Positions 2,129-18,228 of a DNA stretch of 18,228 nt are shown here, one piece after another. Below the pieces are notes generated by a model that was not told where the DNA came from, searched no databases, and saw nothing but the letters and a program-made list of their open reading frames with translations. The stretch spans positions 1 to 18,228 of the forward strand of contig SLGR01000249.1 of assembly GCA_007136585.1 (NCBI GenBank), written 5' to 3'. Numbering within the stretch: position 1 is the stretch's first letter; each line of letters opens with the position of its first letter. This DNA comes from Candidatus Sumerlaeota bacterium (GTDB taxonomy: Bacteria; CG03; SLGR01). A program made the translations under genes and the position numbers.

Positions 2129-3399
2129 GACTTATACCTCCCTTTCCCTATATCCCTGCGAAAATGTTTTCCCCTGAAACTTACGGCATCCGCACCCCGG
2201 TAGGCCTTCTCCCGGGCCTCCTCCAGGGTGCTTCCAAGAGCGGCCACGTTAAGGACGCGCCCGCCGGCGGTAAAATACCTCCCGTCGTCAAACCTTGTCC
2301 CGGAGTGAAAAAGCATCAGATCCCCGGGTATCTTCTCCTTATCAATATATATCGGAAACCCTGTCTCGTAGCTCCCGGGATACCCTCCGGAGGCAAGGAC
2401 CACATCAACGCAGGCCCCCTCCCGGAATTTAAGCCGGGGAGCTTCCCCTTCCATTATCCCGAGAGCCGAGACCAGAAGATCGCTCTCCATAAGGGGAAGC
2501 ACCGCCTGGGCCTCAGGGTCCCCCAGGCGGACGTTAAACTCAAGAACCCGCGGACCCGAAGGGGTCAGGATAAGCCCTATGTAAAGAATCCCGGTATAGT
2601 TTATTCCTCTTTCAAGGAGCTCCCCGGCAAGGGGAGAGAGGATACGTTTCTCAACCTCCCGGAGGAACTCTCCCTCCGCGGGAAAGACCGGGGCAAAGGC
2701 CCCCATCCCCCCGGTATTGGGGCCCCTGTCCCCGTCATAAACCGGCTTATGGTCACGGGAAACCGGAAAGAAGCTCCAGTCATTGCCGTTTACCATGGCA
2801 AGAACTGAGACCTCGTCGCCTTCAAGGCGCTCCTCAATTATAACCCTGCTCCCGGCCTCCCCCCGCGTCTTCTTTCGCATAAGCCCTTCCACAGCCGAGA
2901 GGGCCTCGGAGCGTGACCCGGGGAGGACCACCCCTTTCCCGCCGCAGAGCCCGTCCGCTTTTATCACAATCTTAAGCGGGTCGGTTTTTCTGAGATAATC
3001 AAGGGCCTCCGGAGCCGAATCAAAGGATTCCCAGGAAGGGGTGGGTATCCCTGCCGCGTCCATTACCTCTTTGGCGAATGATTTGGAGGACTCAAGGCGC
3101 GCCGCCTCCCTGCAGGGGCCGAAAACCCTTACCCCTTCCGAACTCAGGGTGTCGGTTATCCCGGCGGCCAGGGGGGCCTCCGGACCCACGAAGACCATAC
3201 CTATATCTTTCCCGGCGGCAAACGCGGCGATTTCCCTGAACCCGGCCATACTTCCGGTCACACGGGCCGCGCGGGATATCGCATCGCTCCCCGGCATACA
3301 GTATATATCCCCGCACTCTTCGGAAGAGGCGAGTTTCCAGGCAAGGGCGTGCTCCCGCCCCCCGGAGCCTATAACCAGGATGTTAAGTTTCTTCTTCAC
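2113..3399 (-). CDS. purD: Phosphoribosylamine-glycine ligase (GAR synthetase)
   Basis: PurD ligates phosphoribosylamine to glycine with ATP, the second purine step. The 428-residue length is normal for the stand-alone bacterial enzyme. The order of motifs is VIGSGGREHALAWKL (9-23), VGPEAPLAAGI (71-81), the ATP-grasp loop IKADGLCGGKGV (146-157), IEERLEGDEVSVL (188-200), DGDRGPNTGGMGAFAP (222-237) and LEFNVRLGDPEAQ (286-298, metal and substrate site). CGGKGV replaces the usual A(A/S)GKGV, a small variation. Translation starts with GTG at 3399, inside the purF 3' end (17-base overlap), with AAGGGA 4-5 nt upstream. This is the second gene of the operon. Confidence 0.97.
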   Translation of the reverse strand: MKKKLNILVIGSGGREHALAWKLASSEECGDIYCMPGSDAISRAARVTGSMAGFREIAAFAAGKDIGMVFVGPEAPLAAGITDTLSSEGVRVFGPCREAARLESSKSFAKEVMDAAGIPTPSWESFDSAPEALDYLRKTDPLKIVIKADGLCGGKGVVLPGSRSEALSAVEGLMRKKTRGEAGSRVIIEERLEGDEVSVLAMVNGNDWSFFPVSRDHKPVYDGDRGPNTGGMGAFAPVFPAEGEFLREVEKRILSPLAGELLERGINYTGILYIGLILTPSGPRVLEFNVRLGDPEAQAVLPLMESDLLVSALGIMEGEAPRLKFREGACVDVVLASGGYPGSYETGFPIYIDKEKIPGDLMLFHSGTRFDDGRYFTAGGRVLNVAALGSTLEEAREKAYRGADAVSFRGKHFRRDIGKGRYKSCRKQ

Positions 3400-4744
3400 A
3401 TTCCCTTCCCAGGGGATATTTATTATTGAAGCAGGAAAGACAGTAATCCTTCCCTCCGCACGCCCTGAGAAGCCCTTCCATTGAAAGGAAGGAGAGGCTG
3501 TCCACTCCCAGGTACCCGCGCATCTTTCCGGCGCTCATCCGGTTTGCCAGGAGCCGGGATGAGTCCGGGGTGTCTATCCCGTAGCGGCAGCTGTGAATTA
3601 TGGGAGGGGAGGTTATCAGAAGATGCACCTGGCTTGCCCCGGCATCCCTTATAAGTTTCACCAGTTTCCTGGAGGTTGTTCCCCTTACAATTGAATCGTC
3701 CACAACCGCGACCCTCCTGCCCTTTACCGCTCCCCGGATGGGGGTATGTTTTATCATTACCCTGAGGTCCCTTATATGCTGGTGGGGCTCTATGAAAGTC
3801 CTCCCTATGTAATGGTTCCTCATAAACCCGAACTCCAGCGGAAGCCCGCTCTCCCTGGCGTACCCCAGGGCCTGGATATTAGCCGAATCCGGGACGGGCA
3901 TCACCATATCGGCCTCAACGGGACGCTCCGAGGCAAGCTGCCTGCCCATATTCAGCCGGGTCTCATAGACGCTCTTAGAGAAGACATCGGAGTCCGGGCG
4001 GGAAAAATAGATAAGTTCAAAGATACAGGGGGAGGGGGTATGTTTCTCAAGGGGGATGCTCTTTATCCCCTCAGCCGAGACCGAGACCATCTCCCCCGGC
4101 TCTATATCCCTTACGAACCGGGCCCCGGTGATATCAAAGGCGCACGATTCGGAGGAAAAAAAGAGAGCCCCGTCCTTCTCACCCATCGAGAGGGGCCTGA
4201 ACCCGTACCCGTCCCGCACGGCTATAATCCTGTCCGGAAAGAAAAGAAGAACCGAGAAGGCTCCCCTGAGAGTGTTGAGAACACCTCTAAGACGCTCCTC
4301 CCAGCTCCCCTTGCGCCTGGCCATCATCTTGACTATAAGCTCTATATCGGTAGAGGTGGAGAATATCATCCCCTCGTCCTCAAGTTTTTTACGCCAGTTT
4401 TCGGCCGAAGGGATGCTCCCGTTATGGGCCGCGGCTATGGGCGAGTTCCTGTACCGCATCACAAGCGGCTGCGCATCCTCCGGAGCGCACCCGCCCCCGG
4501 TTGAGTATCTCACGTGCCCTATGGCCGAGTTTCCCTTTAATTCCGCAAGGGAGTCCGCGGAGAAGACATCGTTAACAAGGCCGGGACCCTTTCTTACCTG
4601 AAACTCATCCCCGGATCCGGATCCGGATACTATACCCGCGCTCTCCTGCCCCCGGTGCTGCAGGGAAAAAAGTCCCAGGTACACGGCCTCGGCCGCGTTT
4701 TCCAGGTTCCAGGCTCCGAATATACCGCAGTATTCTCTCCGCAT
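3383..4744 (-). CDS. purF: Amidophosphoribosyltransferase, Fe-S type with short propeptide
   Basis: PurF transfers glutamine amide nitrogen to PRPP, the committed purine step. Of 453 residues, the N-terminal half is a class II glutamine amidotransferase whose nucleophile is Cys6 (CGIFG). The five residues MRREY before it would have to be removed, as with the 11-residue propeptide of Bacillus PurF. GHVRYSTGGG (76-85) and HNGS (107-110) belong to the same domain. The PRPP loop is VVDDSIVRGTTS (347-358). Four cysteines at 240, 386, 435 and 438 (SPC, HSC, CLSC) match the four ligands of the [4Fe-4S] cluster of Bacillus-type PurF. The first gene of its operon, it is preceded by a consensus promoter about 50 nt upstream of the ATG. 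Its Shine-Dalgarno is poor: GGGAG lies 16 nt away and GAG about 9 nt away. The start codon falls within a 14-bp perfect palindrome. Confidence 0.97.
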   Translation of the reverse strand: MRREYCGIFGAWNLENAAEAVYLGLFSLQHRGQESAGIVSGSGSGDEFQVRKGPGLVNDVFSADSLAELKGNSAIGHVRYSTGGGCAPEDAQPLVMRYRNSPIAAAHNGSIPSAENWRKKLEDEGMIFSTSTDIELIVKMMARRKGSWEERLRGVLNTLRGAFSVLLFFPDRIIAVRDGYGFRPLSMGEKDGALFFSSESCAFDITGARFVRDIEPGEMVSVSAEGIKSIPLEKHTPSPCIFELIYFSRPDSDVFSKSVYETRLNMGRQLASERPVEADMVMPVPDSANIQALGYARESGLPLEFGFMRNHYIGRTFIEPHQHIRDLRVMIKHTPIRGAVKGRRVAVVDDSIVRGTTSRKLVKLIRDAGASQVHLLITSPPIIHSCRYGIDTPDSSRLLANRMSAGKMRGYLGVDSLSFLSMEGLLRACGGKDYCLSCFNNKYPLGRECEEET

Positions 4745-4754
4745 AATATTATGC
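4741..4754. promoter_or_regulatory. 14-bp perfect palindrome over the purF start codon
   Basis: GCATAATATTATGC is its own reverse complement and contains the purF ATG. As DNA it could be an operator; as RNA it is too short to fold on itself. Being AT-rich, it could also occur by chance. Its function is unknown. Confidence 0.35.
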
Positions 4755-4781
4755 TCTAAACTCCCTTTTCATTCCTTCAGC

Positions 4782-4796
4782 CGGGCCCAGGGCCCG
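4782..4796. promoter_or_regulatory. 15-bp GC palindrome at the expected purF transcription start
   Basis: CGGGCCC and GGGCCCG flank one central base, directly downstream of the -10 box at 4801-4806 and spanning the predicted transcription start (about 4794). Its position fits a repressor operator or a very short 5'-end hairpin. It does not resemble the E. coli PurR site or the Bacillus PurBox as I know them. Confidence 0.4.
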
Positions 4797-4800
4797 CAAT

Positions 4801-4829
4801 ATAATAAAGAGCGGGAAGGAGGTTGTCAA
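4801..4829 (-). promoter_or_regulatory. Sigma70-type promoter of the purF operon
   Basis: On the minus strand, TTGACA (4829-4824) is followed by exactly 17 bases and TATTAT (4806-4801). This matches the consensus -35 and is one base off the consensus -10. It lies in the 215-bp gap between dcd and purF, so the purine operon can be transcribed independently of the upstream nrdD-dcd group. The predicted start is near 4794, leaving a leader of about 50 nt. Confidence 0.8.
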
Positions 4830-4898
4830 TACCGGGGAAGCTCTACTTCCATCCTATGGTCCCGGAAGGGTTATCCGTTTAGCCCTGATGAGCTCTTC

Positions 4899-4940
4899 CG
4901 CCTCTCCCGTTATTATCGCAGAGTACGGGTATTAGAGGCG
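4899..4940. other. Stem-loop sequence between dcd and purF
   Basis: CGCCTCT (4899-4905) pairs with AGAGGCG (4934-4940), and CCCG (4906-4909) with CGGG (4926-4929), leaving a 4-base bulge and a 16-base loop. It lies about 20 bases after the dcd stop. No T-tract follows on the minus strand, so it is not a standard intrinsic terminator; it may stabilise the 3' end of the dcd message. Nothing coding was found in the rest of the gap (4745-4959). Confidence 0.35.
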
Positions 4941-4959
4941 ACGGGATCTACAACGGCTC

Positions 4960-5517
4960 TTATTCAACCCGCGGTAGGGTTATCCCCTTCTGCCCCTGGT
5001 ACTTTCCGCCGCGGTCCGAGTATGTGACCCGGCACTTCCGGCTGCTCCGGAAAAAAAGGACCTGGGCTATACCCTCGTTAGAGTATATCCTGGCGGGAAG
5101 GGGCGCGGTATTTGATATCTCCAGGGTCACGTGCCCCTCCCATCCGGGTTCAAAAGGGGTCACGTTCACTATTATCCCGCACCGGGCGTACGTGGACTTC
5201 CCCACGCATACGGCTATGACATCCGGGGGCATCCTGAAATACTCTACCGTCCTGGCCAGGGCAAATGAGTTGGGAGGGATAAGCACGTGCTCCTTCCCTT
5301 TTACAAGGACAAAGGACCTCCTGTCGAAATCCTTGGGGTCGACGGTCGCGCAGTTTATATCCGTAAAGACTTTAAACTCGTCGGCGACCCGGATATCGTA
5401 ACCGTATGAGGATAACCCGTAGGATATAACCCCTCCGGAGGCCTGCCTGCCGGAGAAGGGTTCTATCATACCCTTCTCCCGGGCCATCTTCTCTATCCAG
5501 GTATCGGGCTGTATCAT
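4960..5517 (-). CDS. dcd: dCTP deaminase
   Basis: Dcd converts dCTP to dUTP, feeding dTMP synthesis. At 185 residues it is of normal family length. The signature run [19 protein letters not shown] (106-124), with Ser108 and Arg112, and LEIS with Glu133 (132-135), correspond to the catalytic Ser/Arg/Glu of the E. coli enzyme. [10 protein letters not shown] (147-156) and [13 protein letters not shown] (170-182) complete the nucleotide site. It looks like the plain deaminase, though I cannot exclude the bifunctional deaminase/dUTPase from sequence alone; no separate dut gene is seen here. Its ATG shares one base with the guaB3 TAA. The likely partner is ThyX, two genes upstream. Confidence 0.95.
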
Positions 5518-6653
5518 TATTTACCCATCCCCAGGCTCTGGGCCCTCTGGTATATCTTTCCTTCTTTCTTTATCTCGGGGGCTATTATAAGGGTGCTTTT
5601 CTCGTGAAACTCCTTTACGCTTGAGGCCCCGCAGCTGGACATAGAGAGCCTTATGGCCCCGGCAAGGTTCTGGGTCCCGTCGTCGGTCTTGGCCGGGCCG
5701 AAGAGTATCTCCTCCAGCCCCCCCATTATCCCTACCCGTATCCTGGTACCCCGCGGAAGGTAGGGGTGCGGGAGCGCCATCCCCCAGTGGTAACCCCTGC
5801 CGGGGGCTTCCTTGGCCCGGGCGAAGGTATTGCCCAGCATAACCATATCCGCCCCGGAAGCGAAGGCCTTGCATATATCCGCCCCCACGGTCATACCCCC
5901 GTCCGTTATTATAGAGACATACCGTCCGGTCTCCTTATGGTACCTGTCCCGGGCCCGGGCGCAGTTCATTGTAGCGGTAACCTGGGGGACCCCTATCCCC
6001 AGCACCCCCCTTGTTGTGCAGGCGGCCCCGGGGCCGACCCCCACAAGGACCGCCGAGGCTCCGGCCTCCATCAGGTCGTAGGCAACCTCCCCGGTCACGC
6101 AGTTTCCCAGTATAACCGGGATCCCCATATCCTTTATGAACTTATCCAGCTCAAGAGGAGTGTACCTTGTAGATGTATGCCTGACAGTAAGAACAGTTGC
6201 CTGCACGCAGAATATATCCGCCCCGGCCTCCCGGGAGACAGGGCCCAGCCTGCCGGCGCTCAAAGGGGTGGAAGATACGCATACCGGTCCCCCCTTCTCC
6301 TTTATGGAGCTTACGACTTCCGCCACAAGCTTCTCTTTCACCGGAGCCTTGTATATCTTCTGAAGAAGGGGTGTAACCTCCTCGCGGGGAACCGATATTA
6401 TCTCCTGAAGGACCTCGGCGGGGTTCTCGTACCTTGTGTAAACCCCCTCAAGGTTAAGAACCGCAACCCCTCCCAGACTGCCCATAACAGCCGCAAACCC
6501 CGGATCCACCACCCCGTCCATCGCGCTGGCCAGTATAGGAAGCTCCAGCTTCACACCGCCTATGGCAGCGCTTATATCTATATCCTCGGGATCCGCTGTC
6601 TCCCTCCCCGGAACTATCGCCACTTCGTCAAAACCGTAAGCTCTCTCCATCAT
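5517..6653 (-). CDS. guaB3: GuaB3-family IMP dehydrogenase
   Basis: A 378-residue IMPDH/GMP-reductase barrel. The catalytic loop is [13 protein letters not shown], with Cys212 as the expected nucleophile. [10 protein letters not shown] (251-260) is the phosphate-site region and [18 protein letters not shown] (287-304) replaces the usual mobile-flap sequence. The tandem CBS domains of ordinary GuaB (about 490 residues) are absent. This short architecture and the YHWGM...LPRGTR wording are those of GuaB3 proteins of actinobacteria and cyanobacteria. A cyanobacterial GuaB3 has been reported to be a true IMP dehydrogenase, so IMP to XMP with NAD is the likely reaction; whether a second GuaB exists elsewhere is unknown. 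The ATG overlaps the thyX stop (ATGA, 6650-6653), with GGGG a few bases upstream. Confidence 0.9.
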
Positions 6654-7276
6654 TCATCCCCTTTTCTTCTTATGACCTTCTCTTCTTCGTCAATACTGAA
6701 ATCGCAAAAACACTCCGGAACCTTCTCCCGGAGTATCCGCAGTATCTCAATAAACACCTCCCGGATCTCCCGCTGAGCCCTGGGGCCGCCCCGGAGCTCT
6801 ATCATATGCCTGAGCTGCCTGAAGTTGGCGGTAAGGACTATCTCTGTCCGGCATCCGTTGGGGAGAAGGTACCTGGCCTCCTCTCTCGGAATACCCATTT
6901 TGACCAGCTCCGAGTAGGCCTCGGATATCCTCTCCATTGTTTTCCTGTAAAGACCGGAGGCCTCGCTGCTTACCGAGACTGAACCCGGCTCCACATACTT
7001 AAACCCCTTCTCGCTTACGTACCTCTGGGAGCGCTGCGAAAACGAGCAGAGCCTGTGCCTGACCAGCTGGTGCGTGCAGGAGCGGCTCACTCCGCTTAAG
7101 CGGAAACCGGCGGAGGCGTGCTCCAGGACCGAAAGGTGCCCGGCCCTGATAATCCTGCGGATAAACTCCCCGGCGGACCCGGGGCCCATATTTTCAAAAG
7201 ACATATAGCAGGTTCTCCCCGCCTCCTCTATTACCCTTGCCGCGGCGGGCGTTAGAGAAATAAGCTCCACCTTCAT
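6650..7276 (-). CDS. thyX: Flavin-dependent thymidylate synthase
   Basis: ThyX methylates dUMP to dTMP using methylene-tetrahydrofolate, FAD and NADPH. I start it at the ATG 7276-7274 (208 residues). That codon overlaps the nrdG stop as ATGA and has AAGGGGG about 6 nt upstream; a start 12 codons earlier has no such support. The ThyX signature RHR-X7-S is present (R73 H74 R75 to S83, RHRLCSFSQRSQR). Before it comes LSVLEHASAGFRLSGVSR (48-65), and after it ARYLLPNGCRTEIVLTANFR (134-153) and LRGGPRAQREIR (161-172), the dUMP and FAD-site regions. It sits between nrdG and guaB3 in the deoxynucleotide group. Confidence 0.97.
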   Translation of the reverse strand: MKVELISLTPAAARVIEEAGRTCYMSFENMGPGSAGEFIRRIIRAGHLSVLEHASAGFRLSGVSRSCTHQLVRHRLCSFSQRSQRYVSEKGFKYVEPGSVSVSSEASGLYRKTMERISEAYSELVKMGIPREEARYLLPNGCRTEIVLTANFRQLRHMIELRGGPRAQREIREVFIEILRILREKVPECFCDFSIDEEEKVIRRKGDE

Positions 7277-7983
7277 CCGTACCCCCTTTTTAAAACCCTG
7301 AACCCCGCGCACTCAAGGCGCGCGGATATCCCTTCCGCCTCCTCCTCCCCCAGGGGGGAGAGGCTCCTCATCCAGGGCTCCGCGGCGTTCTCAGGCCTGT
7401 ACCGCTGAAGCGCCCAGCGGGCCCCTCCGGGAAGTTTCCCGGCATTATAAAAAAGATCCTCCGGATCCGCCACCCCCGGGACAAGGGTTGTCCGGAACTC
7501 GTACTCTCTCCCGGATTTTTCAAGAATATCTATACTCATTAAGACACCCTCAAGGGCCCCGGCCGACCCCGTAGCCGTCCGGTACCTGTCTTTCCTCAAG
7601 GCGGTTTTTATATCCAGGGCAACATACTCCGCAAGCTCCCGGTCAAGCACCCGCTCAAGCAACCCGGGGCTGAACCCTCCCGTATCAAGTTTCACCCCAA
7701 GTCCAAGTTCCCTGAAAGACTCAAGGACCCCGATTATATCTTCCCTGAAAAGAGGCTCCCCCCCTGTTACCACTATGCCGTCTATCCATTTCCGCGCTGA
7801 TTGAAGGGTCTCGCGAATCTCCGCGAAGGGAATGCCGGGGATTTCGTTCAGGAGACCGGGGTTCTGGCAGAAAGGACAGCGCCAGGGACACCCGGAGATA
7901 AAGACCACAGCCGCGACCCTGCCCTCCCAGTCCGAGAGAGAGGTCTTCCGGAGACCGGCTATTCTGCCCCCTTTAAGCTCCAT
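7273..7983 (-). CDS. nrdG: Anaerobic ribonucleotide reductase activating protein (radical SAM)
   Basis: This 236-residue radical SAM enzyme has the cluster motif CPWRCPFC (Cys32, 36, 39; CX3CX2C) in the setting FISGCPWRCPFCQNP, and the SAM-binding TGGEP at 73-77. NrdG-type activases make the glycyl radical on NrdD by reductive cleavage of S-adenosylmethionine. The assignment to NrdD rests on its position 50 nt downstream of nrdD and on the CxWRCxxCQNP wording. Its length matches the longer NrdG-like proteins rather than the roughly 155-residue E. coli NrdG. The start ATG has only a weak CGGG upstream. Its stop overlaps the thyX start. Confidence 0.92.
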   Translation of the reverse strand: MELKGGRIAGLRKTSLSDWEGRVAAVVFISGCPWRCPFCQNPGLLNEIPGIPFAEIRETLQSARKWIDGIVVTGGEPLFREDIIGVLESFRELGLGVKLDTGGFSPGLLERVLDRELAEYVALDIKTALRKDRYRTATGSAGALEGVLMSIDILEKSGREYEFRTTLVPGVADPEDLFYNAGKLPGGARWALQRYRPENAAEPWMRSLSPLGEEEAEGISARLECAGFRVLKRGYG

Positions 7984-8033
7984 TATCCCGAATTTAAGTT
8001 AAGCGCCTATGAACCGCGTCCGGGTGAAAACCC

Positions 8034-10181
8034 TTACTGAAAGAGCGCCAGCTGCCCTTCGCCGCCTCTTCCCGACGCCGGTACCGGTTCCGGATCCTTT
8101 TTAGGCTCCCTGGGCATTTTAAAGAGCTTTCTCTCCGAGAACTCCCGGCGCTTTCCGCTGTTCCAGCTGGAGACGGGTCTGTAATACCCCACAACGCGGC
8201 TGTAGACCTCGCAGGGTTCGGCACACTCAGGACACTCCTGATGCTCTCCCCTGAAGTACCCGTGACCGGGACATACGCTGTACGTGGGGGTAAGGGTAAA
8301 GTAGGGTATATGGGAGAGCCCGGCGACCTTCTTTATAAGGTTGCGGCAGGAGTCCGGGGATATTGATTTCTCTCCCATAAATATATGAAAGACCGTTCCG
8401 CCGGTATAAAGGCTCTGAAGATCCTGCTGGTGTTCTATCGCATCAATAACATCATCCGTGTGGGATACAGGCAGCTGGGTGGAGTTTGTGTAGTAGGGGG
8501 TCTCCCTGTCCCCCGCGGTTACGATATCGGGAAACCGTTTCCTGTCCAGGCGGGCCAGGCGGTACGAGGTCCCCTCAGCAGGGGTCGCCTCAAGGTTGTA
8601 TATATGCCCTGTGGATTTCTGGTACTCCACAAGCCGCTCCCTTATATAAGCAAGCACCTCTGCGGCAAACTCCTTCCCTTCGGGAGAAGCTATATCGCGT
8701 CCGAGAAAATTCAGGCAGCTCTCGTTCATCCCCACAATCCCTATGGTGGAGAAATGACTGTCAAAACTTCCGAGGTACCTTTTTGACCACGGGAGCAGCC
8801 CCGCTTCCATATTCCGGGAGACCTCTCTCCTTTTTATCTCAAGCGACTCTTTGGCAAGGTAGAGAAGTTCGTCCAGGTGCGCATAGTACTCTTTTTTATT
8901 TGTGCTCCTGTACCCTATACTGGGGAGGTTCAGGGTGACCACCCCTATGCTCCCGGTCTTCTCTCCCGAACCGAAAAGCCCCCCTGTCTTCTTCTTAAGT
9001 TCCCTTATATCAAGCTGCAGGCGGCAGCACATGCTCCTTACGTCGCCCGGGTTCAGGTCGCTGTTTATGAAGTTCTGAAAATAGGGGATCCCGTATTTCG
9101 CGGTAATATCGAAAAGAAGATCCGATATTTCGCTATCCCAGTCAAAATCCCTGGTTATGTTGTAGGTGGGTATCGGAAAGGTAAAGACCCTGCCGTTCAT
9201 ATCCCCCTCAAGCATTACTTCCAGGAAGGCCCTGTTTATCATATCCATCTGCTCCTGGAAATCCGAGTAGGTCTCTCCCTTTACCATCTCTCCCCCAACT
9301 ATTACCGGCTGGTCCTTCATATCCTCCGGGGGTGAAAGGTCAAAAGTAATATTTGTAAACGGAACCTGGTTCCCCCATCTGCTCGTCGCGTTTATGGCAA
9401 AGACAAACTCCTGTATCCCCTGTTTTATCTGCTTGTATGAAAGGTTATCCTTACCCGCAAGGGGGGCAAGGTAGGTATCAAAGGAAGAGAAGGCCTGGGC
9501 CCCGGCCCACTCATTCTGCAGAGTGCCCAGAAAATTTACTATCTGACCCAGCGCGGCGTTGAAATGCCTGGCGGGTTTCGCAGAGATCCTGCCCCTTACC
9601 CCGTTGAACCCCTCGTAGAGAAGCTGCCCCAGGGACCACCCGGCGCAGTACCCCCCGAATGACCCCACAGAGAGATCGTGTATATGTATATCCCCCTGGC
9701 GGTGGGCCTTTGATATCTCCGGAGGATAGTTATGGCTGAGGGTGTACTCGGCTATGACCGAACCCGAGATGTACTCCTGCATCGCAGAAAGTGAGTAGGA
9801 GACGTTTGAGTTTTCCTGGACCCTCCAGTCCTGCCTCCCCATATAGGCCTCCACCAGCCCCCTTATCTTATCCGAGAAAGCGCTCATCTGACGCATCTCG
9901 TCGCGGTGATGCCGGTGAAGTATGTAGTTCTTTGCCGCTTCCGCGAGGTCATCTTCTATAAGCGTCTGTTCAACAGCGTCCTGGACATCCTCCACCGAGG
10001 GGACCGTATACCCGAACTTCTTTTTCAGATGATGCTCTACCTCCCCGGTGATTTTCCGGGCGGTCTTCTCATCCCGGTGGTCTTCCATCGCCCCCAGGAT
10101 CGCCCGGGTTATCTTCTCAGGCACAAAATCAACCGTATCACCGTTCCTCTTTTTAACAGACTGCAGAAATTTCCTGGCCAT
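8034..10181 (-). CDS. nrdD: Anaerobic (class III) ribonucleoside-triphosphate reductase
   Basis: NrdD reduces NTPs to dNTPs without oxygen by a glycyl radical. It has 715 residues. The N-terminus (about 1-95) is an ATP-cone allosteric domain (VKKRNGDTVDFVPEKI). The catalytic barrel carries GDIHIHDL (163-170), FTNITFDL (275-282) and the Cys-rich RSMCCRLQLD (382-391). The C-terminus has the metal-site cysteines 637, 650, 653 and 657 (CPGHGYFRGEHQECPEC), and the glycyl-radical motif RVVGYYRPV with Gly665 as the radical site. A short Pro/Gly-rich tail follows. GGGAGGG lies 7 nt before the ATG. It is the first gene of the nrdD-nrdG-thyX-guaB3-dcd group, behind a consensus promoter and a leader of about 160 nt. 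Confidence 0.97.
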   Translation of the reverse strand: MARKFLQSVKKRNGDTVDFVPEKITRAILGAMEDHRDEKTARKITGEVEHHLKKKFGYTVPSVEDVQDAVEQTLIEDDLAEAAKNYILHRHHRDEMRQMSAFSDKIRGLVEAYMGRQDWRVQENSNVSYSLSAMQEYISGSVIAEYTLSHNYPPEISKAHRQGDIHIHDLSVGSFGGYCAGWSLGQLLYEGFNGVRGRISAKPARHFNAALGQIVNFLGTLQNEWAGAQAFSSFDTYLAPLAGKDNLSYKQIKQGIQEFVFAINATSRWGNQVPFTNITFDLSPPEDMKDQPVIVGGEMVKGETYSDFQEQMDMINRAFLEVMLEGDMNGRVFTFPIPTYNITRDFDWDSEISDLLFDITAKYGIPYFQNFINSDLNPGDVRSMCCRLQLDIRELKKKTGGLFGSGEKTGSIGVVTLNLPSIGYRSTNKKEYYAHLDELLYLAKESLEIKRREVSRNMEAGLLPWSKRYLGSFDSHFSTIGIVGMNESCLNFLGRDIASPEGKEFAAEVLAYIRERLVEYQKSTGHIYNLEATPAEGTSYRLARLDRKRFPDIVTAGDRETPYYTNSTQLPVSHTDDVIDAIEHQQDLQSLYTGGTVFHIFMGEKSISPDSCRNLIKKVAGLSHIPYFTLTPTYSVCPGHGYFRGEHQECPECAEPCEVYSRVVGYYRPVSSWNSGKRREFSERKLFKMPREPKKDPEPVPASGRGGEGQLALFQ

Positions 10182-10383: not shown

Positions 10384-10497
10384 GGGGTCTTTATCGTCTT
10401 ACACATACCCGGATCTGCCCCAACGCGGGGCGAAGGCGGGGCCTTCTAACCTGACGATAACCTGCCGGCGAACGGGCTATACGCCGGCAACCTCCCC
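10384..10497. ncRNA. Multi-helix structured element of unknown class
   Basis: Perfect complementary arms nest here: TTATCGTC (10391-10398) with GACGATAA (10453-10460); inside it two adjacent hairpins, GCCCC/GGGGC (10417-10421, 10427-10431) and GAAGGC/GCCTTC (10432-10437, 10441-10446). After it comes GCCGGCG/CGCCGGC (10464-10470, 10482-10488); an outer GGGG/CCCC (10384-10387, 10494-10497) can close the whole. The loop CGGG at 10473-10476 can pair with CCCG at 10408-10411, a possible pseudoknot. It lies upstream of both divergent promoters, so it would need its own promoter to be transcribed; I see none of good quality. Strand is unresolved; it may instead be a DNA element or a dispersed repeat. 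Confidence 0.4.
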
Positions 10498-10530
10498 ATA
10501 GAAAGTGTCCTTTATCCAAAACCGGGAAAT

Positions 10531-10551
10531 CCCTGTTTTCCTCAAACAGGG
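10531..10551. other. Perfect 8-bp inverted repeat next to the pyr -35 box
   Basis: CCCTGTTT (10531-10538) and AAACAGGG (10544-10551) flank five bases and end 8 bases before the -35 box of the pyr promoter. The place suits an operator or an end-of-transcript hairpin, but no T-tract follows on either strand. Confidence 0.35.
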
Positions 10552-10559
10552 TTAGAACC

Positions 10560-10588
10560 TTGACAAAGAAGAAGTTACTTTTTAATAT
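10560..10588 (+). promoter_or_regulatory. Sigma70-type promoter of the pyr operon
   Basis: TTGACA (10560-10565), a 17-base spacer and TAATAT (10583-10588), one mismatch from consensus overall. The predicted start is about 10594-10596, leaving a leader of about 125 nt before pyrR. This promoter removes the case for a PyrR start at the TTG of 10560. Confidence 0.8.
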
Positions 10589-10605
10589 CTCAGCGGTTAA
10601 GAAAA

Positions 10606-10722
10606 ATGAGAGCATCCAAAAACTGCTTTTTTGTATTGACTGCGAAAAATATGACTCCCGCGCCGGGGCCAGCGCCCCGGTTTTTCTTAAACTCCGGGGA
10701 ACTTCAAATGAGGATAAAATGA
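10606..10722 (+). CDS. Candidate pyr leader peptide (38 aa)
   Basis: An ATG about 11 nt after the predicted transcription start opens a 38-codon frame that runs through the leader terminator and ends with a TGA overlapping the pyrR ATG (ATGA, 10719-10722). Its Phe-Phe codons at residues 8-9 form the U6 tract at 10627-10632, and a second Phe pair (26-27) lies in the terminator T-run. The layout parallels E. coli pyrL, where a translated, U-rich leader frame crosses the attenuator. The Shine-Dalgarno is weak (TTAAG). The pyrR frame is also open across this stretch, so openness alone is not proof. Confidence 0.4.
   Translation: MRASKNCFFVLTAKNMTPAPGPAPRFFLNSGELQMRIK
10663..10685 (+). terminator. 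Intrinsic terminator (attenuator) in the pyr leader
   Basis: CCGGGGC (10663-10669), tetraloop CAGC, GCCCCGG (10674-10680), then TTTTT (10681-10685): a 7-bp GC stem with a T-tract, placed between the promoter and pyrR. Two competing pairings are visible. TCCCG before it can pair with CGGGG of the 5' arm. A second CCGGGG at 10694-10699 can pair with the 3' arm. It should terminate transcripts unless antitermination occurs. Confidence 0.8.
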
Positions 10723-11288
10723 CCGAATCAAAACTCATAATGGACAGCCGGGAACTGGAGAGGAAACTGAACCGCCTCTCTACAGAAATCGTTGATGAAA
10801 CCCGGGGCGGGGATAACCTGGCCCTTATAGGCATACGCACCATGGGGGCCCACCTGGCGGAAAGGATAAAGAAGAAAACAGATGCCATCCTTTCAACCAA
10901 GATCCCCCTGGGAATTCTTGATATAACCCTTTACAGGGACGATTTTTCAAGGCAACCCGTATCCCTTGCCATTAAAGAAACCATAATAGATTTTGACCTG
11001 ACCGGAAAACATATAGTTCTTATTGATGACGTCCTCTGGTCAGGGCGCACGGTCAGGGCGGCCCTGGATCATATAATGGATTACGGGCGCCCTTCGGTTA
11101 TCCGCCTGGCCGTTCTTATAGACAGGGGCGGAAGAGAGCTTCCCATAGAACCGACCTTCACCGGAGCCAGGGTGGAGGTAAGGGAAGAGGAATGGATAGA
11201 GCTCCGGCTCAGGGAAACCGGAAGCGGCAGAGACGAGGTCCTGTTGAAAAAAGGGAAGAAACCGGGAAACTCCCGGAAAAAGAAATGA
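10719..11288 (+). CDS. pyrR: PyrR bifunctional regulator / uracil phosphoribosyltransferase
   Basis: PyrR binds UMP/PRPP and controls pyr operons, usually by RNA binding, and has uracil phosphoribosyltransferase activity. I use the ATG at 10719 (189 residues): GAGG sits 5 nt upstream, and MDSRELERKLNRLSTEI matches the normal N-terminus of the family. The PRPP loop is IVLIDDVLWSGRT (99-111). LALIGIRTMGAHLAERI (34-50) and LGILDITLYRDDF (64-76) are typical. The C-terminus is unusually basic (KKGKKPGNSRKKK). It leads pyrB-C-K-D-F-E. I do not see the Bacillus-type PyrR RNA-binding loop consensus in the leader, so its target site here is open. Confidence 0.95.
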   Translation: MTESKLIMDSRELERKLNRLSTEIVDETRGGDNLALIGIRTMGAHLAERIKKKTDAILSTKIPLGILDITLYRDDFSRQPVSLAIKETIIDFDLTGKHIVLIDDVLWSGRTVRAALDHIMDYGRPSVIRLAVLIDRGGRELPIEPTFTGARVEVREEEWIELRLRETGSGRDEVLLKKGKKPGNSRKKK

Positions 11289-12223
11289 TAGGAGGCAAAA
11301 AGGACCTTCTCGGGCTTGAGTACCTCTCCCGGCAGGAGATAGAGCTTATTCTTAAAACCGCAAAACCTATGAAGGAGCTCTTTACAAGGACAGTAAAGAA
11401 AGCCCCCGCCTTAAGAGGAAAAACCGTTGTAAACCTCTTTTACGAACCTTCCACAAGGACCCGGGTCTCGTTTGAACTTGCCGCCAAACGCCTCAGCGCC
11501 GATACCGTCAATATAAGCACCAGCGCCTCCTCGGTAGTAAAAGGGGAAAGCCTCATAGATACCGCAAAGACCATTCAGGCCCTGGGGGCCGATACGGTCA
11601 TAATGAGGCACCCGTACTCCGGGGCCCCCGAGCTGATGAGCCGGCATATCTCCTGCTCGGTCATAAACGCGGGCGACGGAACGCACGAACACCCCACCCA
11701 GGGGCTCCTTGACCTTTTCACCATAATGGAGGAAAAAGGAAGGCTTGAGGGGCTGAAAGTCGGCATAGCCGGGGATATACTTCACTCAAGGGTGGCCCGG
11801 TCGAATATTTGGGGACTGATAAAGACCGGGGCCGAGGTGTGCGTAATAGCCCCGGCGACCCTCATCCCTCCCCGGATACAGGAACTGGGGGTGGGGGTTT
11901 ACAACAGGATTGAAGATATAATACCCGAGCTTGATGTTATAAATATCCTCAGGATACAGAAAGAGCGCCAGAAAGAGCTCCTCTTTCCCAGCCTGGGAGA
12001 GTACAGTTTCGTATTCGGGATAGACTCGGATAAGCTCAGAAAATCCAAAAAAGATCTTCTGATAATGCACCCCGGACCTATGAACAGGGGCGTGGAGGTC
12101 TCTTCCACCGTGGCCGATTCCCCCGCCTCGGCTGTAAGCCGCCAGGTTACAAACGGCGTAGCGGTAAGGATGGCGGTACTTTACCTTTTATCCGGAGGAG
12201 CGGAGAATGAAGATGCTTCTTAA
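11285..12223 (+). CDS. pyrB: Aspartate carbamoyltransferase catalytic subunit
   Basis: PyrB makes carbamoyl-aspartate, the second step of UMP synthesis. The ATG at 11285 overlaps the pyrR TGA (ATGA) and gives 312 residues, normal for the family; a longer frame would add 31 residues lying over pyrR. Carbamoyl-phosphate and aspartate-site motifs are FYEPSTRTRVSFELAAKRL (52-70), HEHPTQGLLDLFTI (134-147), GDILHSRVARSN (163-174) and MHPGPMNRGVE (261-271). The Shine-Dalgarno is weak, so translation probably couples to pyrR. No pyrI regulatory subunit is seen, as in Bacillus-type operons. Confidence 0.97.
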   Translation: MIGGKKDLLGLEYLSRQEIELILKTAKPMKELFTRTVKKAPALRGKTVVNLFYEPSTRTRVSFELAAKRLSADTVNISTSASSVVKGESLIDTAKTIQALGADTVIMRHPYSGAPELMSRHISCSVINAGDGTHEHPTQGLLDLFTIMEEKGRLEGLKVGIAGDILHSRVARSNIWGLIKTGAEVCVIAPATLIPPRIQELGVGVYNRIEDIIPELDVINILRIQKERQKELLFPSLGEYSFVFGIDSDKLRKSKKDLLIMHPGPMNRGVEVSSTVADSPASAVSRQVTNGVAVRMAVLYLLSGGAENEDAS

Positions 12224-13496
12224 AGGAGGGATACTTACAGACCCGGCTTCCGGAACCGAGCTGAAAACCGATATCCTCATAAAAGGGAAGCGCGTAGAAA
12301 GGATAGGGAAAAACCTTAAATCCCCTGGAAAGACATTTGATATCCGGGGGAAGAGAGTTCTTCCGGGGTTCATTGACCTGCACACCCACTTAAGGGAACC
12401 CGGCAGGGAGGATACCGAGACCATAGCCAGCGGGACAAAAGCGGGGGCAAAGGGAGGTTTCACCACCCTATGCTCAATGCCCAACACCGACCCCCCGGTT
12501 GACTCCGTATCCGGGGTGAAATACATACTTACAACCTGCGCCCAGGAGGGGAAGATACGTGTCCTTCCCGCCGGCTGTATCACAAAGAACCGGGGCGGGA
12601 GCGAGTTGACGGAGGTGGGGAAGATGTCCAGCGCCGGGATAGTGGCTGTTTCGGATGACGGCAGCCCCGTAATGAACTCGCTTGTAATGAGACGGGCTAT
12701 GGAGTACGCGGGAATGTTCGGGATCCCCGTTATCTCCCACTGTGAGGATATTGACCTGAGCCGCGAAGGGATGATGAACGAGGGGCTCCTCTCAACAATG
12801 ATGGGTCTCAGGGGAATACCCTGCCAGGCGGAGACGGTTATGGCCGCGCGGGATATCGCCTTGGCTGAGCTTACAGGGTGCCGGCTGCATATAGCCCACG
12901 TCTCGGCGGAGAGAACGGCTGCGCTCATAAGGGACGCCAAGAAAAGAGGTATCCCTGTCACCGCCGAGGTTACCCCGCACCACCTTACTCTTACGGAAAC
13001 CAGCCTGAAGGGGTATGACACCAACTTCAAGGTCAACCCCCCGCTGCGTAGCGAAAAAGACAGAAAAGCTCTCCTGAAATATCTTAAGGACGGGACTATA
13101 GACTGCGTTGCCACCGACCACGCCCCCCACCTGGATACGGAAAAGGCCAGGGAGTTCTACCTGGCCCCGTTCGGGGTAACAGGACTTGAGACCGCTTTTG
13201 CCGTACTCTTCACGTATCTGGTTGAAAAGAAAAAACTGCATCTAATCAGCCTTGCCGAAAAGATGACCCTTGGGCCGGCCAGAGTGCTCGGAAGGGATGG
13301 GCTGGGCAGGATCAGCCCCGGCGGAGAAGCCGATATTACCGTAATAGATACTTACACTGAAAAAACAATAACAGAGGATTTCTTCCTTTCAAAATCAAGA
13401 AACTCGCCCTACCTGGGTAAAAAGTTAAAGGGGTTCCCTGTCCTTACCCTTTACGGCGGCCGGGTCGCCTTCAAGGATAATGAACACCTTTCATAG
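12207..13496 (+). CDS. pyrC: Dihydroorotase (class I)
   Basis: PyrC cyclises carbamoyl-aspartate to dihydroorotate. At 429 residues it has the length and motifs of the Bacillus/Aquifex-type enzyme rather than the 350-residue E. coli type. Expected zinc and catalytic residues are visible: His59 and His61 (FIDLHTHLREPG), Asp151 (VAVSDDGSPV), His178 (VISHCED), His231 (HIAHVS) and Asp304 (VATDHAPH). In Aquifex, class I dihydroorotase works with PyrB as a complex; here the genes adjoin. The start overlaps pyrB by 17 bases, with GGAGGAGCGGAGA before the ATG. Confidence 0.97.
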   Translation: MKMLLKGGILTDPASGTELKTDILIKGKRVERIGKNLKSPGKTFDIRGKRVLPGFIDLHTHLREPGREDTETIASGTKAGAKGGFTTLCSMPNTDPPVDSVSGVKYILTTCAQEGKIRVLPAGCITKNRGGSELTEVGKMSSAGIVAVSDDGSPVMNSLVMRRAMEYAGMFGIPVISHCEDIDLSREGMMNEGLLSTMMGLRGIPCQAETVMAARDIALAELTGCRLHIAHVSAERTAALIRDAKKRGIPVTAEVTPHHLTLTETSLKGYDTNFKVNPPLRSEKDRKALLKYLKDGTIDCVATDHAPHLDTEKAREFYLAPFGVTGLETAFAVLFTYLVEKKKLHLISLAEKMTLGPARVLGRDGLGRISPGGEADITVIDTYTEKTITEDFFLSKSRNSPYLGKKLKGFPVLTLYGGRVAFKDNEHLS

Positions 13497-14214
13497 GAAA
13501 GCCCCAATCCTTGAGAACAGGGAGCTGGGACCGGATATACTCTTAATGAGTGTAGAGGCCGGAGATATCGCCTCCGGGGTTTACCCCGGGCAGTTCATAC
13601 ACGCCGAGGCGCCCGGGCGGAGTCTGCGCAGGGCTTTCAGCGTATTTTCCGTCTCCGGAGATTCCCTTTCCATTATTTACAGGGTCCGCGGAAAAGGGAC
13701 CCGGGCCATAAGCGCCCTGGGAAAGGGGGGTATACTGGATATCCTGGGCCCTCTCGGGAAAGGGTTCCCCCGCCCCGGGGAAAACCCGCTCTTCCTGGCA
13801 GGGGGGCTGGGCGCGGCCCCGCTGGGATTTCTCGCCTCGAAAACTTCCGGGGGGGTATTCCTGTACGGCGCGGAGCGGGAGTGCGATTTCATACCCGAAG
13901 AGCTTCTTAATATACCCGGACATACCCTTATCCGGGTATGCCGGGGCTCCTCCGGGGAAACCGTCACCGATATACTCCCGGAATACCTGAACGGGGCCGG
14001 GGCCCTTTACGCGGCCGGACCGACGGCTATGCTTAAAAAGGCGGCCGGGGTAAGCCGCGGTAAGCTGAAAACCTTTGTTTCCTGGGAGGAGACGCTGGGG
14101 TGCGGGACAGGGCTCTGCATGGGGTGCGCCGTTAAGACCCTCTCCGGCTATAAAATGACCTGCAGCGACGGGCCGGTTTTTGACGCGGAAGAGATAGACT
14201 GGGATGCCTGCTGA
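13480..14214 (+). CDS. pyrK: Dihydroorotate dehydrogenase electron-transfer subunit
   Basis: PyrK passes electrons from PyrD to NAD through FAD and a [2Fe-2S] cluster. The 244 residues comprise an FAD domain with RAFSV (51-55), an NAD domain with GGLGAAPL (108-115) and AAGPTAML (178-185), and a C-terminal iron-sulfur site, CGTGLCMGC plus a later Cys (208, 213, 216, 228). The ATG overlaps pyrC by 17 bases; AAGGA is only 2 nt away, a tight spacing, but no better start keeps the FAD domain. PyrK implies the NAD-linked class 1B form of PyrD, which does not need quinones or oxygen. Confidence 0.96.
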   Translation: MNTFHRKAPILENRELGPDILLMSVEAGDIASGVYPGQFIHAEAPGRSLRRAFSVFSVSGDSLSIIYRVRGKGTRAISALGKGGILDILGPLGKGFPRPGENPLFLAGGLGAAPLGFLASKTSGGVFLYGAERECDFIPEELLNIPGHTLIRVCRGSSGETVTDILPEYLNGAGALYAAGPTAMLKKAAGVSRGKLKTFVSWEETLGCGTGLCMGCAVKTLSGYKMTCSDGPVFDAEEIDWDAC

Positions 14215-15034
14215 GTTTGCCTCATTAAAACTTAAGAACCCCTTTATGGCGGCAAGCGGATGTTTCGGTTACGGCTGGGAATCGGCCGGGACCTTCGGCG
14301 AACCCACTCTGGGCGCCGTCGTCACAAAGACCGTAACCCCCGAACCCGTAGAAGGAAACCCGCCCCCCAGGATATTTGAGACCGAGTCCGGGATAGTAAA
14401 CAGGATCGGGCTTCAGAACTGCGGAGTCAGGGAATTTATTGAGAGGCACCTTCCCCGGCTCAGCTCCCTTTCCCTGCCTTACATCATAAGTATTTATTCT
14501 TTTTCCCGTAAAGGGTGGGGGCCCCTGGCCGGCAGGGTTTCGGAAACCGGAGCGGCGGCCCTTGAGCTCAACCTCTCCTGCCCCAACCTCAAGGGAAAGA
14601 GGTTCACCCTTGACAGTGAGGGGTGCGCCCTTGCTTTGGAAGCTGTAAAACAGGCCACGAACCTGCCTCTCCTGGCCAAGATAAACGCATACGATGCTCC
14701 GGTGGAGTTATCCTGCGCGCTGGCGGAGGCCGGGGCCGATGCGGTGGTATGTTCCAATACCCTTCCGGCGGCGGTTATCAAAAACGGGGTTTATTTTGAA
14801 GGCGGCCTCTCCGGTCCTGCGATAAAACCCGTGGTCCTGAAAGCGGTAAAGGCCATAACCTCTGAACTCCGGATACCCGTGGCGGCCTGCGGGGGGATAA
14901 GCTCCCTGGAAGATGTGCGAGAGTACAGCCAGGCCGGGGCGAAGGCTTTCCAGCTGGGCTCGGCGCTTCTTAAAAACCCGAGGGCGGCGGAGAAGATACT
15001 CCGGCAGAGCCGGGAGGATAAGCAAAATGGCTGA
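14204..15034 (+). CDS. pyrD: Dihydroorotate dehydrogenase, class 1B catalytic subunit
   Basis: PyrD oxidises dihydroorotate to orotate with FMN. The protein is 276 residues, somewhat shorter than the usual 300 or so. It has NPFMAASGCFGYG (12-24), TKTVTPEP (41-48) with Lys42, NRIGLQNCG (66-74), the catalytic Cys126 in ELNLSCPNLKG (121-131) and the phosphate loops AACGGISS (227-234) and QLGSALL (250-256). Cys at the active site marks class 1; the pyrK neighbour makes it 1B. The start overlaps the end of pyrK by 11 bases. Only a weak GGG precedes the ATG, so coupling to pyrK is likely. Confidence 0.96.
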   Translation: MPAEFASLKLKNPFMAASGCFGYGWESAGTFGEPTLGAVVTKTVTPEPVEGNPPPRIFETESGIVNRIGLQNCGVREFIERHLPRLSSLSLPYIISIYSFSRKGWGPLAGRVSETGAAALELNLSCPNLKGKRFTLDSEGCALALEAVKQATNLPLLAKINAYDAPVELSCALAEAGADAVVCSNTLPAAVIKNGVYFEGGLSGPAIKPVVLKAVKAITSELRIPVAACGGISSLEDVREYSQAGAKAFQLGSALLKNPRAAEKILRQSREDKQNG

Positions 15035-15671
15035 ACTTATAGTGGCCCTTGATTTCCCGTCCCTTTCCCGTGCTGCCGAAATGGTTGATACTCTCCGTAA
15101 AGAGGTAAGTTTCTTTAAGGTGGGGCTGGAGCTCTTCACCCGGTGCGGCCCCGATGCGGTAAAGATGGTCAGAGACAGAGGGTGTGATGTTTTTCTTGAT
15201 CTCAAGATACACGATATCCCAAATACCGCCGCCGGGGCCGTAAGGTCCGCGGCAAACCTGGGATGCCGTTCGCTCACGATACATGCGGCATCAGGGAGAG
15301 AGGCCCTTAAAGCGGCCGCCGGGGCGCGGGAAAGCGGGGCTCCGCTTCTTTGGGGTGTGACCCTCCTTTCCAGTATTGACGGGGGTGACGGATCTGAGCT
15401 TGCCGCGCTGGCCTTTGAGGCGGGGCTTGACGGGGTCATAGCCTCCGGCGAGGGGGTTGTATCCGTAAAAAAATCCTTCCCACGGCTACAGATAATAACC
15501 CCCGGGATCAGACCCCGGGGCGGGGATGCCGATGATCAGAAAAGGGTGCTTACCCCGGCCCAGGCGGTAAGAGCCGGAGCGGATTTTCTGGTAGTCGGAA
15601 GACCCGTCACAAGAGCCGGGGACCCCGCCGCTGCGGCTGCCCTGATAAAAGAGGAGGCGTCCCGGATATGA
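15027..15671 (+). CDS. pyrF: Orotidine-5'-phosphate decarboxylase
   Basis: PyrF converts OMP to UMP. I start it at the ATG 15027 (214 residues) because GGGAGG lies about 9 nt upstream and MAELIVALDFPS is the usual N-terminus of the family; an in-frame extension of 38 residues lies over pyrD and is Arg-rich. The catalytic Asp-Lys-Asp set is in FLDLKIHDIPNT (Asp58, Lys60, Asp63). ITPGIRP (157-163) and VVGRPVTRAGDP (189-200) form the phosphate site. It overlaps pyrD by 8 bases, and its own stop overlaps pyrE. Confidence 0.97.
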   Translation: MAELIVALDFPSLSRAAEMVDTLRKEVSFFKVGLELFTRCGPDAVKMVRDRGCDVFLDLKIHDIPNTAAGAVRSAANLGCRSLTIHAASGREALKAAAGARESGAPLLWGVTLLSSIDGGDGSELAALAFEAGLDGVIASGEGVVSVKKSFPRLQIITPGIRPRGGDADDQKRVLTPAQAVRAGADFLVVGRPVTRAGDPAAAAALIKEEASRI

Positions 15672-16231
15672 AAGACCCGCGAAAAACCTTTATGGATGCG
15701 GGAGCCCTGAAGGAGGGGCATTTCCTTCTTGCAAGCGGGAAACATTCCGGATATTATTTCCAGGCCCAATCCGCCCTCCAGCACCCCTCAGTCGCCCGGG
15801 AAACAGGAAAGGCCCTGGCGGAGTTTTGGAAGAACGAGGAAATAGAGACGGTTGTATCCCTTGCCGTAGGGGGCGTACTCCTAGGGCACGAGACAGCAAA
15901 AGCCCTGGAAACGCGCCACATCTTCGCGGAACGGAAAAAAGGGGAGATGGGGTTTCACCGGGGGTTCTCCGTAAGACCCGGGGAGAGGGTTCTGATAGTT
16001 GAAGATGTGATAACAACGGGTGGAAGCGTGCGGGAAGTAATCGGAAAACTGGAGAGCTCCGGCGCGGATATAAAAGGTATAGCCGCTCTCTTAAAACGCG
16101 GAAAAGCGGAGTTTAAGCACCCCCTGAGAGCCCTTATGGAGGCGGAGTGGGAGGCCTACGACCCTTCAGGGTGCCCGTTATGCCTCAAGAGGCTACCGCT
16201 TTCAACCCCCGGGACAAAACAGTTCTCTTAA
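15668..16231 (+). CDS. pyrE: Orotate phosphoribosyltransferase
   Basis: PyrE joins orotate to PRPP, giving OMP. It has 187 residues with FLLASGKHSGYYFQ (19-32), the PRPP loop VLIVEDVITTGGS (108-120), and the C-terminal CPLC...PGTKQF (169-186) seen in many PyrE proteins of this length. The ATG overlaps the pyrF TGA (ATGA, 15668-15671). It is the last gene of the pyr operon; pyrF before pyrE follows the Bacillus order. No clear terminator hairpin is visible in the 77 bases between its stop and the end of the convergent gene at 16309. Confidence 0.96.
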   Translation: MKDPRKTFMDAGALKEGHFLLASGKHSGYYFQAQSALQHPSVARETGKALAEFWKNEEIETVVSLAVGGVLLGHETAKALETRHIFAERKKGEMGFHRGFSVRPGERVLIVEDVITTGGSVREVIGKLESSGADIKGIAALLKRGKAEFKHPLRALMEAEWEAYDPSGCPLCLKRLPLSTPGTKQFS

Positions 16232-17189: not shown

Positions 17190-18228
17190 ATGGGGTACAA
17201 AAAAATGAGCAACGTTGATGTTTACGAAATCTTCAGGCGCTATCATAGCGGTCAAAATATTTCTGAAATATCCGTAATGGAACAACGTGACCGAAAAACA
17301 ATCCGGCAGTATATACAAAAGCTGAACGATTTAGGATTTACCAAAGAGAAGCCGTTGCCGCAGAGAGAAGAATTATTTGCGGCAATTTCTACTATTCTTC
17401 CCAAAACAGAGAGGGCTAAAAATGCCTATGAAGAGCTTGAAGTTTTGACGGATAGATTTCGGGAGTTAATCCACGACAGGGAAGATGGAGTAAAACCTAA
17501 AACAGCCTTTAAGATATTAAAGAAACAAAACGATCTGAAATGCAGCTATGAGACATTCAAGAGATTTTCCCGGGATAAGAAATTAAAGAAAGAAAAACAG
17601 AAAGAAATGATCCGAATTGAGCTGCCGGCCGGCGAGGAAGCACAGCTTGATTATGGAAAAGTCGGACTGCATTATGACGCTAAATCCGGGAAGAAACGAG
17701 CTGTAAATGCATTCTGCATGGTATTATCGCACTGTCGCTTGCCGTTTTTTCAATTTACGTATACCCAGAAGCAGGATTCTTTTGTCAGCAGCATAATAGA
17801 CGGTTTTGAATATTACGATGGAGTACCCGAACGTATTTCCATTGATAATTTAAAACAGGGGGTGATAAAGCCGGATTTATATGATCCGAAACTAAACCGG
17901 ACGCTGTTGGAAATGGTGGAATACTATGGAGTTTTCATAGATCCGTGCAGAGTACAAAGGGCCACGGATAAAGGCAAAATTGAACGCCTGGTGTCGGTGG
18001 GCAGAGAACTGTTCCGGGAATTGAAGATATTGCATCCTGACGCAAGTCTGGAAGAGTTAAACAGGTTGGCCATAGAGTGGTGCCGCAAAGAATACGGGTT
18101 GAGAAAACATGGTACAACCGGGATTGAGCCGATGCTGGTTTATGAGAATATGGAAAGAGACAAATTAAAGAGATTGCCTGACGACAGATTTGAGCTCACC
18201 CAATGGAAACCTGTAACGGTGCATCCTG
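17190..18228 (+). CDS. istA: IS21-family transposase IstA, C-terminus outside window
   Basis: I translated 346 codons without a stop from the ATG at 17190, which has AGGAGGT four bases upstream. The N-terminus is a helix-turn-helix DNA-binding region (EIFRRYHSGQNISEI, then RKTIRQYIQ). A DDE integrase core follows: Asp154 in AQLDYGKV, Asp219 in ISIDNLKQG and Glu265 in DKGKIERLV, with the RATDKGKIE context typical of IstA. Family members are about 400-520 residues, so the C-terminus and the ATPase partner IstB should lie beyond the right edge. Base composition is clearly more AT-rich than the pyr genes, consistent with recent acquisition. The visible part has no frameshift, so the element may be active. 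Confidence 0.92.
   Translation, partial: MGYKKMSNVDVYEIFRRYHSGQNISEISVMEQRDRKTIRQYIQKLNDLGFTKEKPLPQREELFAAISTILPKTERAKNAYEELEVLTDRFRELIHDREDGVKPKTAFKILKKQNDLKCSYETFKRFSRDKKLKKEKQKEMIRIELPAGEEAQLDYGKVGLHYDAKSGKKRAVNAFCMVLSHCRLPFFQFTYTQKQDSFVSSIIDGFEYYDGVPERISIDNLKQGVIKPDLYDPKLNRTLLEMVEYYGVFIDPCRVQRATDKGKIERLVSVGRELFRELKILHPDASLEELNRLAIEWCRKEYGLRKHGTTGIEPMLVYENMERDKLKRLPDDRFELTQWKPVTVHP

Follow-up and report, generated by a model that had tools for sequence, protein, structure and literature searches.

Upstream of the pyr operon in the window (the whole 18,228-nucleotide stretch of DNA analysed here) lies a strong intrinsic terminator that is almost certainly an attenuator. Our best reading, which we hold tentatively and with just under even confidence, is that this is a transcription attenuator relieved by a ribosome, a loop-free variant of the Thermus type that works without the standard contact between PyrR and RNA. 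What makes it a variant of that known kind is the missing PyrR site. The operon has the order pyrR-pyrB-pyrC-pyrK-pyrD-pyrF-pyrE and is near-complete, with carAB missing, and its upstream neighbor, nrdD, is divergent from it. The features of the leader and operon are as follows.

10560 to 10588, + strand: sigma-70-type promoter, TTGACA-17-TAATAT, with 10 of 12 consensus matches; promoters of the same type are found in four relatives
10606 to 10722, + strand: 38-codon leader frame with a weak Shine-Dalgarno sequence, open in L002 and L005 too
10608 to 10630, + strand: weak predicted hairpin in the minimum-energy fold, GAGAGCA pairing with UGCUUUU; possible pause hairpin
10627 to 10632, + strand: U6 tract, also in L002, absent in L005
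10662 to 10685, + strand: intrinsic terminator (attenuator) with 8 pairs, 7 of them G-C, loop CAGC, and T5
10694 to 10699, + strand: CCGGGG third arm, a possible pairing partner of the 3' arm of the terminator (-11.9 versus -16.5 kcal/mol)
10710 to 10713, + strand: GAGG, the Shine-Dalgarno sequence of pyrR, within the leader frame
10719 to 11288, + strand: pyrR, encoding a protein without the residues associated with loop binding (T22, G138, E144, R151, E153)
11285 to 16231, + strand: pyrB, pyrC, pyrK, pyrD, pyrF, and pyrE, the rest of the operon

The phylum sample comprised 16 genomes, 7 of which have a close pyrR, while an eighth match is marginal. In the 5 loci from the order pyrR heads the operon, and in the other 2 phylum members with pyrR it adjoins pyrB. 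The order loci are the window (L001), L002 from the same family, L005 from the same order, and L003 and L004, which are order members with short leaders.

Promoter and terminator ahead of pyrR

The promoter boxes lie at 10560-10565 (TTGACA) and 10583-10588 (TAATAT) with a spacer of 17 nt, and the predicted transcription start is near 10595. A TTGACAAA...TAAACT-like promoter is found in all 5 order loci, at -159 in the window, -152 in L002, -161 in L005, and -87 and -89 in L003 and L004. This recurrence across the loci indicates that the promoter is more than a chance match and is conserved across the order. Some 100-130 nt ahead of this promoter, L003, L004, and L005 share another promoter-like element with CAACAGG behind it, which was not seen in the window.

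The terminator stem spans 10662-10681, with 7 G-C pairs and one G-U pair, and runs into T5 at 10681-10685. Its strength is above chance: among 5000 dinucleotide-shuffled versions of the 124-nt leader and 1000 of the whole intergenic region, none contained a stem of at least 7 G-C pairs with a T run. All three long leaders have a hairpin and U run before pyrR, which is strong in the window and in L005 and only 4 bp in L002; the terminator of L005 is the strongest among the relatives and occupies the same place as that of the window. The short leaders of L003 and L004 have no hairpin before pyrR, so that the hairpin is kept where the promoter stands at -152 to -161 and missing where it stands at -87 or -89.

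Since the terminator lies between the order-conserved promoter and pyrR, with no upstream gene on the same strand for it to end, it is almost certainly an attenuator and probably works as a gene switch for the pyr operon, with termination expected to occur there in vivo. The proposal in the first-pass annotation of an attenuator ahead of a pyrR-led operon is thereby supported, and the parts that it named (the promoter, the U6 tract, the terminator, the 38-codon frame, and CCGGGG) are all in place. We consider it very unlikely that the hairpin is a chance or unrelated structure rather than the terminator of the pyr transcript. Its weakness in L002 and its absence from L003 and L004 would be in keeping with such an origin, but both the shuffles and the strong terminator at the same place in L005 argue against it.

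The leader frame and the layout of known attenuators

The leader frame opens with ATG at 10606 and closes after 38 codons with TGA at 10722, which overlaps the pyrR ATG at 10719 (ATGA). The first-pass annotation listed this frame among the parts of the leader. As a control, we kept the terminator fixed and shuffled the leader sequence flanking it. A terminator-crossing ORF was present in 94% of the shuffled leaders; it began with ATG in 61%, and in 10% it both began with ATG and ended on the pyrR ATGA. An ORF in the pyrR frame, from TTG at 10560, is likewise open through the entire leader. Because the shuffles mostly yield a crossing ORF, the 38-codon frame in the window alone is not above chance, and we reject its significance by itself.

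Comparison of the three long leaders lends the frame mild support. In the window, L002, and L005, the final 75 nt of the leader contain no stop codon in the +1 frame, counted from pyrR; the shuffle probabilities are 0.32, 0.23, and 0.12 for the three leaders, and the joint probability is about 0.009, or about 0.03 allowing for frame choice. Conservation of the leader frame therefore holds in part: the same frame is open in all three (p of about 0.01 to 0.03), but the start codon is not conserved, being ATG with a weak Shine-Dalgarno sequence in the window and TTG behind a strong one (GAGGGG) in L005, and no convincing start codon was found in the L002 leader. The leader peptides of the window and its relatives have PRFF[LM] in common, the letters of which come mostly from the 3' arm of the terminator and the T run.

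The U-rich tract lies 30 nt ahead of the terminator stem, and the evidence for its conservation across the three leaders is mixed: it is present in L002, of the same family, but absent in L005, of the same order, which has the strongest terminator. L002 additionally has an A-run/U-run hairpin at the position that matches the 10608-10630 hairpin of the window. UTP-sensitive pausing in this U-rich leader is possible. The CCGGGG third arm, which had been proposed to capture the 3' arm of the terminator, is present and can form this pairing; it is not clearly conserved in the relatives. Since it lies 3' of the T run and is made after the termination decision, a role as antiterminator is excluded, and at most it could influence translation of pyrR. 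The minimum-energy fold contains no competing 5' structure (antiterminator) upstream of the terminator, the sole alternative arm being the one 3' of the T run.

These comparisons also bear on a static attenuator, in which the terminator would cut expression by a fixed fraction or answer some other signal and the leader frame would be accidental. Such an arrangement accords with a crossing frame being expected by chance in most shuffles, with a start codon and U-tract that are not conserved, and with the loss of the hairpin in L003 and L004, where the promoter was kept close to pyrR. We regard it as doubtful, however, given that a strong terminator fronts a biosynthetic operon of a kind commonly under attenuation control in other organisms and that the same frame is open in three leaders.

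Thermus strain ZO5 reportedly has, in the work of Van de Casteele et al. 1997, a promoter, a leader ORF crossing an intrinsic terminator, and pyrR leading pyrB and pyrC, and a translating ribosome is said to have been proposed there as what prevents the terminator. The window shares the intrinsic terminator between promoter and pyrR. As to a leader ORF, its 38-codon frame runs across the terminator and into the pyrR start, but a crossing ORF is expected in most shuffles; the frame is open in three leaders (p of about 0.01 to 0.03). The difference lies in the loop, the 3' strand of which carries the leader Shine-Dalgarno sequence in Thermus, whereas the window has no loop and a PyrR without the associated residues. 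In our collection, locus L018 belongs to a Thermus-like genome, since its PyrR matches 1ufr end to end (E 9e-108) and is nearly identical to it. This locus has a PyrR loop, a terminator, and a 28-codon leader ORF from -76 to +11 that crosses the terminator.

We found 42 pyrR leaders in which a loop is combined with a terminator. In 34 of these, an ORF begins no more than about 40 nt from the loop end and crosses the terminator, and in 9 of the 34 the end of this ORF coincides exactly with the pyrR start (ATGA or GTGA). Given the shuffle result for the window, crossing ORFs in this set may be partly due to chance; the ORF start that falls consistently just behind the loop AAGG is suggestive of a meaningful position. 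The survey points to a wide distribution of the Thermus-type leader-ORF layout, beyond Thermus itself. The window was initially suggested to combine a pyrBI layout with pyrR in a hybrid, but since its layout is of the Thermus type that was already known and is common, that label is superfluous.

Other regulatory systems resemble the window less completely. It shares with the Bacillus-type PyrR attenuator (RF00515) a terminator upstream of pyr genes and pyrR within the operon, but it lacks the binding loop and an antiterminator 5' of the terminator. The enterobacterial pyrBI attenuator has a U-rich tract and a leader frame that continues past the terminator into the first gene. Both have counterparts in the window sequence, but there the first gene is pyrR, conservation of the leader frame and of the U-tract is only partial, and pausing and a response to UTP are conjectural. 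In mycobacterial translational repression by PyrR, a PyrR loop covers the ribosome-binding site; the PyrR-led operon is common to both, but the window has no such loop and does have a terminator.

The PyrR-binding loop and the residues of PyrR

The Rfam model RF00515 finds no PyrR-binding loop in the window leader beyond chance up to E=10. We gathered 164 pyrR upstream regions from across bacteria and built a covariance model from 23 loops with the known core. This model picks up loops in about 68 other loci, with scores of 20 to 51 bits. The best score of this model in the window leader is 8.7 bits (E 3.6), and a stem-loop with the UCCNGNGAGG core was found there by neither model, confirming the earlier remark that no PyrR loop is visible. 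The covariance model also finds no loop in six phylum relatives and none that is convincing in any of the 16 phylum genomes, where the best match has 20.8 bits (E 0.27) and 0 of 4 matches lie on a contig with pyrR. The leaders of the 5 order loci have no stem-loop in common.

RNA binding by PyrR needs His22 and the arginine numbered 141 in Bacillus subtilis, which we take to be position 144 in the present alignment. Our comparison covered 155 PyrR proteins for which sufficient upstream DNA was available; of these, 69 have a loop. The loop is present for 67 of the 101 proteins with His22 and for 2 of the 54 with another residue at this position, both Phe (Fisher 1e-15, a value that ignores descent). 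The raw association between the loss of His22 and that of the loop is strong, but the four well-supported independent pairs that the tree offers are too few to separate it from descent. In a scan of all columns, the best or near-best predictors of the loop among the 69 loop proteins were N151 (68/69), R/K144 (63/69), H22 (67/69), P153 (69/69), and H138 (69/69). At positions 151, 144, 22, 153, and 138, the window PyrR has Arg, Glu, Thr, Glu, and Gly, and the PyrRs of the phylum are likewise without the predictors. Positions 27 and 144 of the window PyrR are both E, acidic in place of basic or contact positions, and its active-site region IDDVLWSGRTVRAAL is intact. If the loop-free reading holds, the PyrR lineage of the phylum has probably given up the standard RNA contact. 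Of the two alternatives offered in the first-pass annotation, a hybrid or a PyrR-independent sensor, the latter gains support from a phylum PyrR without the loop-predicting residues and the former is not needed.

It is extremely improbable that the window has the classical Bacillus or Thermus arrangement, in which PyrR binds a canonical loop. The gene order and terminator position are as in Thermus, but the loop is absent by two independent models and the residues associated with it are absent as well.

The genome has a separate upp gene, which weakens the idea that PyrR is kept solely as a uracil phosphoribosyltransferase. Since pyrR is kept beside pyrB despite this upp, PyrR would appear to still have a job beyond uracil salvage. 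No pyr-type attenuator was seen in front of upp, which in these genomes comes directly after the end of another coding region.

The main rival to our reading is that PyrR controls the attenuator through a diverged RNA site missed by the standard models, binding close to where the leader begins and so blocking the ribosome or aiding the terminator as in Thermus. The position of pyrR at the head of the operon or next to pyrB throughout the phylum loci fits this explanation, as do the separate upp, by which PyrR is not needed merely for salvage, and the residues that the phylum PyrRs have in common at the signature positions (K/R151 and E144). Against it stand the lack of a common stem-loop among the leaders of the order and the acidic residues at positions 27 and 144. 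On balance we consider a diverged site unlikely, if a serious candidate.

Elsewhere in the collection, L118 and L157 hold the only two loops whose PyrR is without His22. Both proteins have Phe22, and the loop core is altered to TTCCGTGAGA with a model score of 33 bits, which suggests that protein and loop co-vary. In L097, where PyrR has Tyr22, a different hairpin, CGGGAACGGTTGTTTCCCG, is followed by a leader ORF that extends across a terminator and has its end on the pyrR GTGA; this hairpin may be a PyrR site that varies in keeping with Tyr22.

Proposed mechanism and genomic setting

In the ribosome-relieved attenuator that we favor, RNA polymerase would start near 10595 and produce a leader of about 124 nt. 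By default, the polymerase would halt near 10685, where the terminator ends, without entering pyrR-pyrB-C-K-D-F-E. Readthrough would most likely be signaled by a ribosome following in the leader frame and blocking the folding of the terminator, so that the attenuator is possibly worked by translation coupling. Translation of the leader in the window, or its coupling to transcription, would probably be controlled without the standard PyrR contact, which is unlikely to be used since, in contrast to Thermus and many other bacteria, no loop lies over the leader start and PyrR is without the matching residues. The signal could be, for example, UTP-dependent pausing over the U-rich leader. The scheme joins observed elements (promoter, terminator, geometry, loop absence, and residue changes) to presumed termination in vivo, presumed leader translation, and a putative signal driving readthrough. 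Points against it are the chance-level frame, the weak Shine-Dalgarno sequence, the missing clear start codon and the 4-bp hairpin of L002, the lack of a U-tract in L005, the retention of pyrR beside pyrB despite the separate upp, and the number of leaders, which is only three.

It is also conceivable, though we think it rather improbable, that PyrR in the phylum lost its RNA recognition while the terminator was kept, and that a pyrBI-like, ribosome-coupled UTP sensor took control of the switch, which would be a natural exchange of sensors on a single attenuator. If true, this would mean that an attenuator with a protein sensor can lose the site for that sensor yet keep its output stage. The residue signature H22, H138, R/K144, N151, and P153 offers a testable predictor of PyrR proteins that use the loop.

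The window as a whole is a divergent nucleotide-synthesis cluster, with genes at 3-10181 on the - strand facing away from the pyr operon at 10719-16231 on the + strand. The - strand cluster contains a purM-like frame, purC, a purE-like gene, purD, a purF-like gene, and dcd, as well as a GuaB3-type IMP dehydrogenase, thyX, a radical-SAM nrdG-like gene, and nrdD. In the divergent intergenic region, positions 10400-10560 carry the G+C-rich inverted repeats CCCCAACGCGGGG, GCCGGCGAACGGGCTATACGCCGGC, and CCCTGTTTTCCTCAAACAGGG, which have no match in Rfam and could be involved in control of nrdD. Downstream of the operon, an IS21-family transposase at 17190-18227 (+ strand) is truncated by the end of the contig.
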